In this document: piece by piece, positions 5,295-20,110 of the stretch | How positions within the stretch are numbered: the stretch's first letter is position 1 | Layout of the letters: the number at the start of each line of letters is the position of its first letter | NCBI GenBank assembly: GCA_001914785.1 | Contig: MNDE01000082.1 | Location: 1 to 37,288 of the forward strand | DNA length: 37,288 nucleotides | Reading direction: 5' to 3' | Source: Acidobacteria bacterium 13_2_20CM_57_17 | Lineage (GTDB): Bacteria > Acidobacteriota > Terriglobia > Acidiferrales > UBA7541 | Program-made: the position numbers and the translations under genes | The notes under the pieces: model-generated | Databases searched by the model: none | What the model saw: the letters and a program-made list of their open reading frames with translations, nothing else | Told to the model about the DNA's origin: nothing

Positions 5295-5836
5295 TGCAGC
5301 ACCGTTCACACATATATGGTGTGATAGGCGAGTTCGGCACGCCTGAAGAACTCCTCCACGCCGTGGAGAAAGTCCGCGAGGCGGGCTACCGTCGCTTCGA
5401 TGCCTTTGCTCCCTTCCCTGTCGAAGGTCTTTCGGAAGCTCTTGGCCTGAAGCGCAACCTGGTGCCTGCGATCACCCTTTTCGGTGGCCTAGCGGGGGGC
5501 ATCGGAGGGTTTTTCTTTCAATACTGGGCCATGGCGATCACCTACCCGTTGAACATCGGCGGCCGTCCCCTCAATAGCTGGCCTGCTTTTATTCCCGTCA
5601 CCTTTGAGCTGGCCATTCTCGGAGCGTCGCTCGCTGCGGTTTTCGGTATGCTCGCCCTCAACAAACTGCCCCAGCCGAATCATCCGGTTTTCAACGTGCA
5701 TCGTTTCACGCATGCATCGTCAGACCGTTTTTTTGTTTGCATCGAATCCAAGGATCGGAAATTCGATCTTGCGGAATGCGCGCGCCTTCTCCAGGAAGTT
5801 CACGCGCACCATATCACCGAGGTGGCCCTTGACTAA
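5291..5836 (+). CDS. actD: Alternative complex III subunit ActD (DUF3341-like)
   Basis: Starts ATGATG at 5291 inside the longer 5159 ORF; MMQHRSHIYGVIGEFGTPEELLHAVEKVREAGYRRFDAFAPFPVEGL is typical of ActD; overlaps the actC stop. Confidence 0.9.
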   Translation: MMQHRSHIYGVIGEFGTPEELLHAVEKVREAGYRRFDAFAPFPVEGLSEALGLKRNLVPAITLFGGLAGGIGGFFFQYWAMAITYPLNIGGRPLNSWPAFIPVTFELAILGASLAAVFGMLALNKLPQPNHPVFNVHRFTHASSDRFFVCIESKDRKFDLAECARLLQEVHAHHITEVALD

Positions 5837-14897: not shown

Positions 14898-15797
14898 ATG
14901 CCCCGCACGGTTCGCTGTGGCCTGATTCAGGCACGATGTGAATGGTCTCCGGAAAGGTTTTCGCTCGCCGACATCAAGAAGAAAATGATCGCCAAGCACG
15001 AGCGCTTGATCGCCAACGCCGCCAAGAAAAAAGTGCAAATCCTCGGTCTCCAGGAACTCTTCTATGGCCCGTACTTTTGTGCCGAGCAGCAGACTCGCTG
15101 GTACGAATTGACTGAGCGCATCCCTGACGGACCTACCATCTCGCTGATGCAAAAACTCGCCAAGAAATATCAGATGGTCCTCGTCGTCCCAGTCTACGAA
15201 GTGGAGATGACCGGCGTTTACTTCAACACCGCTGCCGTCATTGACGCTGACGGCCGCTACCTCGGCAAATACCGCAAGCACCACATTCCGCATTGTCACC
15301 CGGGCTTTTGGGAGAAGTTTTATTTCACGCCCGGAAACGCCGGCTATCCCGTCTTCCAGACTCGCTACGCTCGCGTCGGCGTGTACATTTGCTACGATCG
15401 CCATTTCCCCGAGGGCGCGCGCATCCTCGGCCTCAACGGCGCGGAAATCGTCTACAACCCCTCCGCCACCGTTGCCGGCCTCTCCGAATATCTTTGGGAA
15501 CTCGAGCAGCCCGCCCACGCCGTCGCCAACGCCTATTTCGTCGCCGCCATCAATCGCGTCGGCACGGAAGCTCCCTGGAAAATCGGCGAGTTTTACGGCA
15601 AGAGCTACTTTTGCGACCCGCGCGGGAAAATCGTCGCCCAGGCCAGCCGCGATAAGGACGAACTGCTCGTCGCGGAATTGAATCTCGACGAGATTCAGAA
15701 AGTCCGCGACACCTGGCAGTTCTACCGCGATCGCCGCCCGGAATCGTATGGCGAAATCGTGCGCACGCAAGCCGCGACCAGCGCCGCAGCCAGCTAG
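14898..15797 (+). CDS. Beta-ureidopropionase / N-carbamoyl-beta-alanine amidohydrolase-like nitrilase-superfamily protein
   Basis: ATG 14898 after GGGAGG; E-K-C nitrilase triad context (LQELF, KYRKHHIPH, VYICYDRHFPEGAR); next to NCS1 permease and hydantoinase. Confidence 0.87.
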   Translation: MPRTVRCGLIQARCEWSPERFSLADIKKKMIAKHERLIANAAKKKVQILGLQELFYGPYFCAEQQTRWYELTERIPDGPTISLMQKLAKKYQMVLVVPVYEVEMTGVYFNTAAVIDADGRYLGKYRKHHIPHCHPGFWEKFYFTPGNAGYPVFQTRYARVGVYICYDRHFPEGARILGLNGAEIVYNPSATVAGLSEYLWELEQPAHAVANAYFVAAINRVGTEAPWKIGEFYGKSYFCDPRGKIVAQASRDKDELLVAELNLDEIQKVRDTWQFYRDRRPESYGEIVRTQAATSAAAS

Positions 15798-15864
15798 GTT
15801 ATGTTCCGCCTCCCGGCAAACGCAGTTGCGATTCGCGATAAGGAGATGGGAGCAGACCTTCACG

Positions 15865-17301
15865 ATGAGTGAAATTCACAGCGCCGCGCTTCGCGCCGAA
15901 ACCATTCAGAACAGTTCGCTCTACAACAAGGACCTCGCTCCCGTCCCCAGCGAACACCGCGTCTGGCGCACCTACAATTACGCCGCCCTGTGGATTTCCA
16001 TGAGCGTGAACATTCCCACGTACATGCTCGCCAGCGGCATGATTGCCGGCGGCATGAACTGGAGACAGGCGCTCTTCACCGTGTTTCTCGGCAACGTGCT
16101 GGTGCTGATTCCTATGCTGCTCAACGCCCACGCCGGTGCGCAGTACGGCATCCCCTTCCCGGTTTTTGCGCGCGCTTCGTTCGGCGTTCTCGGCGCCAAC
16201 GTCCCCGCCATTCTGCGCGCTCTTGTCGCCTGCGGCTGGTTCGGCATCCAAACCTGGATCGGCGGCGAAGCCATCAACGCCATGATCGTAGCGCTTGCGC
16301 CTTCTTGGGCGCGCTTTTCGTCCGGCCCGGCCATCTGCTTCGTTTTCTTCTGGTTCCTCAACGTTCTTGTAATTCTTCGAGGAATCGAAACCATCCGCTT
16401 CTTGCAGGGCATCTCCGCTCCGTTCCTGCTGCTCATCGGACTTGCTCTTCTTCTTTGGGCCCGCAGCAAGGCTGGCGGCTTCGGCCCCATGCTGGCCACG
16501 CCGTCGAAATTCCAGAGCTTCAATGAGTTTTTCCGCTTCTTCATCCCTTCGCTCACCGGCGTCGTCGGTTTCTGGGCCACTGTTTCATTGAACATTCCCG
16601 ACTTCACGCGTTACGCCCGTGGCCAGCGCGATCAAATCGTCGGCCAGGCCCTCGGTCTTCCCGCCACGATGACTTTTTATTCCTTCATCGGCATCGCCGT
16701 CACGTCCGCCACTATGATCATTTTTGGCCAGGCGCTCTGGGATCCCGTCGCCGTTCTCTCGCGCCTCGGCAATCCTTTCGCTGTCGTTCTGGCGATGATC
16801 GCCTTGCTGATGGCCACTCTCAACGTCAACGTCGCCGCCAACGTTGTCTCTCCGGCCAACGATTTCTCGAATCTTTCTCCTCGCCGCATCAGTTTTCGCA
16901 CCGGTGGACTCATCACCTGCGCCATGGGCATCGTCATGCAGCCCTGGAAATTGATGGCCGATTACGGCAGCTACATTTTCGGCTGGCTCGTCGGCTATTC
17001 CGGCTTTCTCGGCCCCATCGCGGGCGTCCTCATTTGTGATTACTTCATCGTGCGCAAGAAATTCCTCGTCCTCGAAGATCTTTATCAACGCAATGGCGTC
17101 TACGAATACTCACGCGGCTTTAACTGGACCGCCGTTGCGGCGCTGGCTGCTGGCGCGGCCGTCGCTTTTGTCGGCCTGGTGTTTCCGCCCTTGCGCGTCC
17201 TCTACAACTACGCTTGGTTCGTCGGCTTCCTGGTCAGCTTCTTTATCTATTTCGCCCTGATGAACCGCGTCGCGCCGGTTACGCAGCCGGCCGACGGGTA
17301 G
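15865..17301 (+). CDS. NCS1 family nucleobase:cation symporter (uracil/allantoin/hydantoin permease-like)
   Basis: Start at 15865 MSEIHSAAL; NYAALWISMSVNIPTYMLASGMI, GIPFPVFARASFGVLGANVPAILRALVACGWFGIQTWIGG signatures. Confidence 0.9.
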   Translation: MSEIHSAALRAETIQNSSLYNKDLAPVPSEHRVWRTYNYAALWISMSVNIPTYMLASGMIAGGMNWRQALFTVFLGNVLVLIPMLLNAHAGAQYGIPFPVFARASFGVLGANVPAILRALVACGWFGIQTWIGGEAINAMIVALAPSWARFSSGPAICFVFFWFLNVLVILRGIETIRFLQGISAPFLLLIGLALLLWARSKAGGFGPMLATPSKFQSFNEFFRFFIPSLTGVVGFWATVSLNIPDFTRYARGQRDQIVGQALGLPATMTFYSFIGIAVTSATMIIFGQALWDPVAVLSRLGNPFAVVLAMIALLMATLNVNVAANVVSPANDFSNLSPRRISFRTGGLITCAMGIVMQPWKLMADYGSYIFGWLVGYSGFLGPIAGVLICDYFIVRKKFLVLEDLYQRNGVYEYSRGFNWTAVAALAAGAAVAFVGLVFPPLRVLYNYAWFVGFLVSFFIYFALMNRVAPVTQPADG

Positions 17302-17322
17302 CACAGGCATTCCTGCCTGTGC
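17298..17322 (+). repeat. REP-like perfect palindrome with GTAG foot at the NCS1 stop codon
   Basis: GTAG + GCACAGGCA-TTCC-TGCCTGTGC (17301-17322), 9-bp perfect stem; TAG of the foot is the NCS1 stop codon. Confidence 0.6.
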
Positions 17323-17341
17323 TCTTACGGCCTAAAGCGTA

Positions 17342-17363
17342 TCTTCGAGGTTCAAATCGAAGA
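17342..17363. other. Short hairpin between the NCS1 permease and the LLM oxidoreductase
   Basis: TCTTCGA-GGTTCAAA-TCGAAGA, 7-bp perfect stem with 8-nt loop. Confidence 0.45.
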
Positions 17364-17401
17364 CAGATTCAGGGTTGCTACTGGGAGGAGGCTCAATTCT
17401 T

Positions 17402-18397
17402 ATGGACTTCGGCATCACCATTAAGCCCGATATCTCAATAGACCGCATCCTCAGCCTCACGCGCCATGCCGAATCCTCCGGCTTCTCTTTCGGCTGGATT
17501 TTCGATTCTCACGTCATCTGGAAGGAGCCCTTCCCGCTCCTCACTCTGATGGCCTCCAACACCCAAAAAATGCGCCTCGGTACTTGCGTAACAAATCCAG
17601 CCGTCCGCGACGTCACCGTTTCCGCCAGCCTCTTCGCCACTTTGAATCTTGCCTCCCAAGGCCGAATGGAGCTAGGCATTGGCCGCGGCGACAGTTCCCG
17701 TCGCGTTCTCGGCAAGAAGCCCACCACGCTCGAAAACCTCGAGGAATTCGTCCGCATCTTCCGCAACTTGAATGCTGGCAAGACAGTTGACCTCGACGGC
17801 GTCTCCACAAAATTCCCTTGGGCCAGCGGCGAAATTCCCCGCGTCTGGGTTGCCGGCTATGGCCCCAAAGCCTTGCGCACTGCCGGTCGCATGGGCGACG
17901 GCGTGATTCTCCAGTTTGCCGATCCCGACCTGATCGACTGGTGTCTCGGCTTTGTTCGCGAAGGCGCCAAGGAAGCCGGCCGCGACTTCAGCAAAATCGA
18001 AGTGATGGCCGCCGCCCCCGTTTGGCCCTCGGGCGATCTGAAAACCGCGCGCGAACACGTTCGCTGGTTTCCCGCCCTCGTTTCCAATCACGTATTGGAC
18101 CTCATCTCCAAATACAAGCCGGAAGAACTGCCCCCGGCGCTGACCTCTTTCGTCAAAGACCGTGGCAAGTATGACTATCTGCACCACTGCGAAGTCGGCA
18201 GCGATAACGCCGAATTCGTCAGCGACGAAGTCGTCGACCGTTTCTGCATCATCGGCCCCATCGACGAGCACCGCAAAAAGCTCGACCGCCTCCGCAAAGT
18301 CGGCGTCACCCAATTCAACATCTACCTCATGTGTGGCGACGAAGAAAAAACTTTGGACGTGTATAAACGCGAAATCGTGCCCCACTACAACCACTGA
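17402..18397 (+). CDS. LLM class flavin/F420-dependent oxidoreductase
   Basis: ATG 17402 MDFGITIKPDISIDRILSLTRHAESSGFSFGWIFDSH; luciferase-like (GRMELGIGRGDS, RVWVAGYGPKALRTAGRMGDGVIL). Confidence 0.87.
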   Translation: MDFGITIKPDISIDRILSLTRHAESSGFSFGWIFDSHVIWKEPFPLLTLMASNTQKMRLGTCVTNPAVRDVTVSASLFATLNLASQGRMELGIGRGDSSRRVLGKKPTTLENLEEFVRIFRNLNAGKTVDLDGVSTKFPWASGEIPRVWVAGYGPKALRTAGRMGDGVILQFADPDLIDWCLGFVREGAKEAGRDFSKIEVMAAAPVWPSGDLKTAREHVRWFPALVSNHVLDLISKYKPEELPPALTSFVKDRGKYDYLHHCEVGSDNAEFVSDEVVDRFCIIGPIDEHRKKLDRLRKVGVTQFNIYLMCGDEEKTLDVYKREIVPHYNH

Positions 18398-18430
18398 CTA
18401 CTCCAGCGCCTCATTCCCTTAACTTTTTTC

Positions 18431-18458
18431 TTGACATTTTCTCAATTTTAGATATACT
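18431..18458 (+). promoter_or_regulatory. Sigma70-like promoter upstream of the dihydropyrimidinase
   Basis: TTGACA (18431-18436), 16-nt spacer, TATACT (18453-18458) in a locally AT-rich segment. Confidence 0.6.
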
Positions 18459-18718
18459 GCATTTGTAGATTACTAGCTATGGACTGCGGAAGCCTGCTCC
18501 CGCTTTTCCTTTTTGAGCCGCAATTTCCGCTCGTGTGCTCTGAAACAACCAAAAACCCGTCCTTTAGAATCAATCACTTACGAATTGCTTTTTCTGTAAG
18601 TCTTTTCTTTTGATATTCATGCAAAATGATGGGGGGTGGGGGGATGCATGGTTTCATCCCTTCCCATTTGCTTCCGAGTTAATCAGAATCTGTTCCCGCT
18701 TCAGCAGAGGACTTGCAC

Positions 18719-20110
18719 ATGCGCTTTGACACCGTAATTCGCAACGGCACGGTCGTGACTGCCACAGACACCTCCCTCGCTGACGTCGGCATCGCGGGCG
18801 ACAAGGTCACTGCCATCGCCGCTCAGCTTCCAGCGGAAAACGCCACGCGCATCGTTGATGCCTCCGGCTGCCTCGTCATTCCCGGCGGCATCGACGTGCA
18901 CACGCACCTCGACATGCCCTTCGGCGGCACGACCAGCGCCGACGATTTCCAGACTGGCACCATCGCCGCCGCGTTCGGCGGTACCACCACGCTCATCGAT
19001 TTCGCCATCCAGTACAAAGGCCAAACCCTCCGCCAGGCCTTTGACACTTGGATGAAAAAGGCCTATGACAAAGCCGTCACCGACTACGCTTTCCACTGCA
19101 TCATCACCGACCTCGGCTCCGCCCAGCTTGAGGAAATGGGCCAGCTTATTCGCGAAGGCATTACCAGCTTCAAGCTCTTCATGGCCTACCCGGGCGTCTT
19201 CATGCTCGATGACGCCACCATCTTCAAGGCCATGCGTCAGGCAGCAAAACACAGCGGCCTCATTTGCATGCACGCAGAAAACGGCGGCGCCATCGACGTC
19301 ATCGTTCAGCAAGCCCTCGCCGAAGGGAAACGCGCGCCGAAGTATCACGCGCTCACCCGCCCCACCACCGCTGAAGCCGAAGCCACTTCCCGCGCCATCG
19401 CCCTCGCGGAAATGGCCGGAGCGCCCGTTTACATCGTCCATCTCTCCTGCAACGACGCACTCGAAAAAGTCCGCGAAGCCCGCGACCGCGGCCTTCCCGC
19501 CTACGCCGAAACCTGTCCGCAATACTTGTATCTCTCTCTCGAAAATATGGACGCGCCCGGATTTGAAAGCGCCAAATACGTTTTCACTCCGCCGCTCCGC
19601 GAAAAGTGGAATCAGGAAAAACTCTGGCAGGGCCTCGCCAAAGACACGTTGCAAGTCGTCTCCACCGACCACTGTCCCTTCTGCTTCAAGGAGCAGAAGG
19701 AACTCGGGAAGGACGACTTCACCAAAATTCCCAACGGCGGCCCTGGCATCGAGCACCGCTTAAGCCTCGTCTATACCGGCGGCGTCCACGGCAAGCATTT
19801 TTCGCCCAATCGTTTTGTCCAGCTCGTTGCAACCGCACCGGCAAAACTCTTCGGCCTCTACCCGCGCAAAGGCACCATCGCCGTCGGCTCCGATGCCGAC
19901 CTGGTCATCTTCGATCCCAATCACGAGGAAGTCATCAGCGCCAAGACCCACCACATGCGCGTGGATTATTCCATGTTCGAGGGCATCAAGATCAAAGGCG
20001 CGCCCAAAACCGTTTTCTCCCGCGGCCGCACCGTCATCGAGTCCGGCAAATTCGTCGGCCGCCCCGGCGCAGGCCAATTCCTCCGCCGCCAAACCTACGC
20101 TGGCTTATAG
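18719..20110 (+). CDS. hydA: Dihydropyrimidinase / D-hydantoinase
   Basis: GIDVHTHLDMPFGG metal-binding motif, SFKLFMAYPG (carbamylated Lys context), VSTDHCPFCF; ATG 18719 preceded by GCAGAGGA. Confidence 0.93.
   Translation: MRFDTVIRNGTVVTATDTSLADVGIAGDKVTAIAAQLPAENATRIVDASGCLVIPGGIDVHTHLDMPFGGTTSADDFQTGTIAAAFGGTTTLIDFAIQYKGQTLRQAFDTWMKKAYDKAVTDYAFHCIITDLGSAQLEEMGQLIREGITSFKLFMAYPGVFMLDDATIFKAMRQAAKHSGLICMHAENGGAIDVIVQQALAEGKRAPKYHALTRPTTAEAEATSRAIALAEMAGAPVYIVHLSCNDALEKVREARDRGLPAYAETCPQYLYLSLENMDAPGFESAKYVFTPPLREKWNQEKLWQGLAKDTLQVVSTDHCPFCFKEQKELGKDDFTKIPNGGPGIEHRLSLVYTGGVHGKHFSPNRFVQLVATAPAKLFGLYPRKGTIAVGSDADLVIFDPNHEEVISAKTHHMRVDYSMFEGIKIKGAPKTVFSRGRTVIESGKFVGRPGAGQFLRRQTYAGL

Follow-up and report, generated by a model that had tools for sequence, protein, structure and literature searches.

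A genus-restricted family of dispersed, promoter-bearing intergenic elements in Acidobacteriota, with one copy upstream of hydA

The BOX, RUP and SPRITE repeats of pneumococcus are short, intergenic and built from modules that form hairpins. They are present in tens to a hundred copies, occur in a few related species and largely occupy old insertion sites; SPRITE resembles an intrinsic terminator, some copies of BOX are expressed, and BOX, RUP and (short) SPRITE have terminal inverted repeats (PMC3049150). REP/REPtron and TIR/TIRtron repeats were described also in Acidobacteria (PMC3733652). The Pxr paralogues are multi-copy, paralogous small-RNA genes (PMC5568312).

In our study, intergenic elements were found in a single Gp2 genus of Acidobacteriota. 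They resemble BOX, RUP and SPRITE in plan, copy number, narrow host range and old sites, with no relation expected in sequence, but they are without terminal inverted repeats and are defined by a promoter of fixed sense and an end at a G-run. With REP/REPtron and TIR/TIRtron they have in common that palindromic repeats lie between the genes of an acidobacterium which also codes for Y1 (IS200/IS605-like) tyrosine transposases, whereas the Gp2 element is about 221 bp long, has a promoter, contains no GTAG/CGTC tag at the foot of its palindrome and is not flanked by transposase genes, save for one type-B copy several hundred bp away from one. As in Pxr, a promoter and a hairpin resembling a terminator belong to each copy, with divergence in the stretches between and constraint at key parts; the Gp2 family differs in its far larger number of copies, in a conserved block past the terminator, in the exchange of types at fixed loci and in having transcripts that are predicted. 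A literature search returned nothing specific on a described repeat like this in Acidobacteria.

The copy upstream of hydA

The window, i.e., the whole stretch of 37,288 nucleotides that was analysed (contig MNDE01000082.1 of Acidobacteria bacterium 13_2_20CM_57_17), belongs to a genome that is 78% complete (G000). The G+C content was 41–44% across 18400–18699 and 53–66% on either side, so that the AT-rich block placed at 18420–18713 by the first-pass annotation was real, whereas the element itself was found to be about 221 bp long (18423–18643). The near-consensus promoter reported there was also borne out. TTGACA and TATACT, separated by 16 nucleotides, match the consensus at 11 of 12 positions, and no second promoter-like site was found in 17500–19500, where shuffled sequences yielded 0.6 ± 0.8 sites. 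Transcription is predicted to start near 18465, and the ATG of hydA is about 254 nt further on, close to the 250 nt given before. The features of the locus are as follows.

18423–18643, + strand: the whole copy of the type-A element, from its homology to 20 copies in the same genome and 13 or more in relatives; it begins about 8 nt before the −35 hexamer and ends at the G-run.
18431–18436, + strand: −35 hexamer TTGACA; mean column identity 97%, against 63% in the spacer (27 copies with a full 5′ half), and 0/54 substitutions between orthologues.
18453–18458, + strand: −10 hexamer TATACT; mean column identity 94%, and 2/54 substitutions between orthologues.
18486–18503, + strand: hairpin H1, GCGGAAG-CCTG-CTCCCGC (consensus GCGGGAG-CTTG-CTCCCGC); 96% of cells paired, with an A-C mismatch in this copy.
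18504–18514, + strand: T-tract 3′ of H1, resembling that of an intrinsic terminator; TTTTCTTTTT in most copies.
18515–18549, + strand: variable inner part; about 10% substitutions between orthologues and low identity between paralogues.
18550–18580, + strand: CCAAAA...CCTTTAGAATCAATCACTTA box; about 90% column identity, with a related unit recurring in type B.
18578–18599, + strand: core of hairpin 2, TTAC...GTAA; inner pairs kept in 29–34 of 34 copies, with zero double changes.
18609–18630, + strand: TTTGATATTCATGCAAAATGAT block; 1.3% substitutions between orthologues against 7% in the flanks, and no covariation.
18631–18643, + strand: terminal G-run GGGGGGTGGGGGG; the 3′ end of type A and of most type-B copies, where homology stops.
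18719–20110, + strand: hydA, a dihydropyrimidinase-like amidohydrolase (Pfam Amidohydro_1) with its own AGAGGA at 18706–18711; a neighbour outside the element.

The coordinates reported earlier for the inverted repeats and for the G-run were all correct; the pairing itself was partly revised. The GCGGAA/TTCCGC repeat enclosing GCTC/GAGC is present, but the conserved hairpin pairs the same left arm with CTCCCGC at 18497–18503. The inner TTAC/GTAA of ACTTAC/GTAAGT was kept across copies, whereas pairing at its outer positions was lost in 13 and 18 of the 34 copies. The GGGATG/CATCCC repeat lies at and past the end of homology, and the orthologue was without a conserved form of it. The TTTG/ATTC of the 18609–18630 block can pair with GAATCAA at 18567–18573. 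Taken as a whole, 18465–18719 folded no better than shuffled sequence (z = +0.5), and no Rfam family matched the window at the gathering threshold. In the window hydA stands in series with a cytosine/purine/allantoin-type permease and a luciferase-like monooxygenase (15748–20110), and the three look like a pyrimidine or hydantoin utilisation cluster.

Two types of element in one genus

A homology search of the same genome with 18400–18730 found about 20 diverged places at unrelated loci, mostly 72–83% identical, and the dispersed intergenic element that had been listed as one option for this block was thus borne out. In the alignment of these type-A copies the 5′ part consisted of TTTTCC, TTGACT-N16/17-TATACT, about 27 nt and GCGGGAG-cttg-CTCCCGC-TTTTCTTTTT, with H1 beginning about 21 nt past the predicted start. 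The 3′ part contained a variable stretch followed by CCAAAA...CCTTTAGAATCAATCACTTACGAAATGC...TGTAAGTCCTTTCTTTTGATATTCATGCAAATTGATG and GGGGGGTGGGGGG, and the homology ended at the G-run. With a covariance model, full copies numbered 16 in G000 and 20 in G027, a close relative whose genome is 97% complete; the total for type A in G000 was 16–21, depending on the search. The model matched 13 of 121 genomes, all of one Gp2 genus, the copy numbers per genome in this survey being lower bounds. Decayed and 5′-truncated members were also present (L021, L023, L024, and L027).

No match to the element was found among 50,697 phage and 72,556 plasmid records. A single IMG/VR contig contained a type-A copy, which adjoins a host gene, and a phage or plasmid element was rejected on these grounds. 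This predicted viral contig (IMGVR_UViG_3300011270_000016; L100, 1–800) opens with the host gene and the copy. The same gap in G000 and G027 (L009/L070) holds the type-A copy in the opposite orientation. Four copies (L018, L070, L101, and L102) are directly preceded, in their upstream flanks, by an extra module, an inverted repeat of the form GGTTTGAATTTT...AAAATTCAAACT with CCGCTACCAAA at its end. The H1 sequence is not limited to type-A elements: it was also found beside one of them, within type-B copies and in further genera of the same class (G000:C117:52112, C8:10494, and C177:12379), and the hairpin may be a separate, widespread terminator-like repeat.

A search for CCTTTAGAATCAACACTTACGAA brought up further places, which were named type B. 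In these a promoter usually stands at the start, TAAGTCCTTTAGATGCAACACTTA alternates with a unit that is nearly its reverse complement, and the end is a similar G-run. A model of the 3′ module found 48 copies in G000 and 35–50 in five other genomes, confined to the same Gp2 genus as type A; the E-values of the covariance and module models are rough. Rfam searches of the type-B loci matched an unrelated tRNA and nothing else. The family in this genome thus comes to about 60–70 elements (type A 16–20, type B about 48). Because the type-B model was built from the 3′ module alone and contains no promoter, a promoter upstream of its matches is an independent observation. Using a simple, home-made promoter score on the upstream 300 bp (cut-off ≥ 15), a strong sense promoter was found upstream of 71% of the type-B copies, against 5% and 13% in the downstream and reverse-strand controls, respectively (p = 2e-9). 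In a second species the values were 50% against 0% and 0% (p = 4e-4). Terminator-like hairpins of varied sequence followed the promoter in 14 of 58 type-B copies and in 1 of 58 control windows, by a home-made terminator score. As read from their sequences, types A and B share one plan of putative promoter, predicted terminator (in type B only in some copies), hairpin units and G-run.

H1 was found to fit an intrinsic terminator, with a 7-bp GC-rich stem, the TTTTCTTTTT T-tract after it and compensatory changes (double changes from G-C to C-G in three cases and from A-U to G-C in one), although the copy in the window is imperfect. H1 was damaged differently at the hydA locus of G000 (the A-C mismatch) and of G027 (one base lost; L069, about 5342–5359), and most other copies were perfect. 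In the type-B stem AATCAACAC/GTGTTGATT the pairing was kept by double changes in 5 of 16 sequences. The covariation that the first-pass annotation had proposed as a check was therefore seen in H1 and in the type-B stem, not in the whole proposed type-A structure, whose score was not above that of shuffles. The other type-A arms were conserved in sequence and gave little information on pairing. Since the whole-structure score did not exceed shuffles, a folded RNA in the 3′ block is no more than a possibility.

Constraint, shared loci and type switching

Nearly all copies had a counterpart at the orthologous place in G027. In nine clean orthologous pairs the conserved parts contained 32 substitutions in 1012 positions (3.2%), against 162 in 2331 (7.0%) in the flanks (p = 8e-6); the pre-35 and G-run rows were left out of these counts, as the labels of some pairs spill into the flanks. 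The variable inner parts had 8.2% substitutions in the same pairs, and in the block that surrounds and follows hairpin 2 the value between orthologues was 1.5%. The promoter hexamers were conserved across paralogous copies and the spacer between them was not; between orthologues the difference between hexamers and spacer was not significant (p = 0.19).

In a distant species, 6 of 20 type-B loci lay in the same gap and in the same orientation as an element of G000 (L176/L023, L177/L135, L179/L123, L181/L027, L183/L132, and L185/L119). This was judged by hand from tblastn and model coordinates, and three further pairs (L173/L213, L180/L015, and L186/L209) were dropped, as gap or orientation differs. 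If about 65 elements were spread by chance over a few thousand gaps, less than one shared gap would be expected. By a cruder count, a neighbour gene of any kind was shared at 9 of 20 loci and at 3 of 20 control stretches, a difference that is not significant alone (p = 0.08).

The type of the element was found to differ between species at L176/L023, at L181/L027 and at hydA, and in the close relative at L028/L116. At L120/L072 and L032/L081, A and B/C types were present within the same intergenic region, and at L010/L079 and L022/L102 the swap was confined to one half of the element, the other half and its flank being orthologous. Such half-swaps and type switches are what recombination between copies would leave. 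Gene conversion may be the cause of the type switching, and it may mimic part of the constraint signal.

Possible roles of the family

We consider it slightly better than an even chance (a probability of about 0.52) that 18423–18643 belongs to a family of self-promoted, non-coding transcription units that are dispersed within a single genus and have been partly homogenised by recombination, and whose copies are old, lie at inherited loci and are under purifying selection at the promoter and the 3′ block. Each copy would be a short, self-contained unit starting at a sigma-70 promoter, with an intrinsic terminator soon after the start in type A and in some B copies, followed by a module of hairpin-forming repeats that closes at the G-run. 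Judging from sequence, the most likely product of each copy is a short RNA of its own, made independently of the neighbouring genes; in type A this would be a terminated RNA of about 45–50 nt, with some read-through to the 3′ block and G-run. The copies would swap parts and types by recombination at the loci they inherited. An independent small RNA, also an option in the first-pass annotation, is possible and is the function we prefer; any action in trans would be conjectural. The promoter is conserved across copies, as expected of a small-RNA gene family. Several points count against RNA units: 60–70 copies with decayed and truncated members are more usual for repeats than for RNA genes, at one locus the element is flipped in another organism, the covariation score of the whole type-A structure is not above shuffles, the hexamers do not differ significantly from the spacer between orthologues, and a terminator so near the start would leave the conserved 3′ block mostly untranscribed. 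We think it rather doubtful that dozens of non-coding RNA genes, each with its own promoter, lie at inherited intergenic loci of the genus and exchange their bodies between loci by gene conversion, such that position, promoter and G-run would stay while the type of RNA changes and the G-run may form the 3′ end.

The main rival is a selfish or domesticated interspersed repeat. It would be a non-autonomous, MITE-, REP- or BOX-like element moved by a transposase in trans, with a promoter and hairpins that serve its spread or are remnants of the parent and with no gain for the host; in its selfish form we regard this as possible, though distinctly less probable than the transcription units. Like a MITE, the element is short (about 221 bp), non-coding and multi-copy (16–21 of type A, 48 of type B). 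The high copy number in intergenic places and in both orientations, the decayed and truncated copies, the restriction to one genus and the flip at the L009/L100 locus favour such a repeat, as do the Y1 transposases of G000 and G027, one with a type-B copy nearby. However, most copies are constrained and lie at shared orthologous loci, the orientation is constant in all carriers at hydA, and the 5′ end TTTTCCTTGACT and the 3′ end ATTGATGGGGGGTGGGGGG are not mutual inverted copies, so that terminal inverted repeats are absent. No target duplication was evident in the flank alignments, which include no clean empty site. Among eight Y1 transposase loci in the two genomes, seven were without an element nearby; at L229 (G027:C34, 775–888 and about 1501–1758) a type-B copy was found at a distance of about 600 bp from the transposase gene. 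At H1 there was no GTAG or CGTC (its flanks are AGT/TTTT), and the unit of about 221 bp exceeds the 20–40 bp of a REP palindrome; a REP/RAYT system, being without the tag and without a consistent link to a transposase, was rejected. A SINE-like retro-element, suggested by the 5′-truncated copies, was also rejected, as reverse transcriptase (PF00078) had no match in G000 or G027, whereas control genomes matched.

The same features could act at the level of DNA, which we consider improbable: the G-run and hairpin units would be a site of binding, pausing, R-loop formation or recombination, and the promoter would supply nascent RNA. With a terminator this close to the start, few transcripts would reach the 3′ block, so the 3′ block may work as DNA, and despite its place past the terminator no other part is as constrained. 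The G-run as the 3′ end common to types A and B and the recombination breakpoints inside elements also favour this, whereas the sequence of the G-run differs between copies. Mitochondrial CSB II has two G-runs one base apart on the sense strand downstream of a promoter and is known for its quadruplex. The G6-T-G6 of the element likewise lies downstream of its promoter; there is no homology, and the likeness is an analogy only.

The block upstream of hydA belongs to the repeat family, not to hydA. The first-pass suggestion of a structured leader RNA controlling hydA was rejected, together with a riboswitch, since the downstream gene shares the strand of the copy in 9 cases and lies on the other strand in 10, with unrelated genes following the other copies, and since at least eight members of the genus have a hydA, about 90–94% identical, without the element upstream. 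Across the genus the hydA locus contained type A in G000, G027, and G026, B-like elements in G028, G011, G013, G008, and G006, and degenerate remnants in G014, G016, and G031. The sense orientation in every carrier, whether A or B-like, and the end of the element about 75 nt before the start codon would suit a leader or attenuator acting in cis, and H1, weakened in both G000 and G027, might favour read-through towards hydA. Nevertheless hydA has its own ribosome-binding site 3′ of the element, and we regard such control as very improbable.

The usual view of small interspersed repeats is that they are parasitic debris. In these genomes a promoter-like block ahead of a gene may be part of the repeat and not of the gene. 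The present family joins a conserved promoter, shared loci, purifying selection and the swapping of types, so that RNA-seq could directly test, in an uncultured soil lineage, whether it is a parasite or a family of RNA genes.
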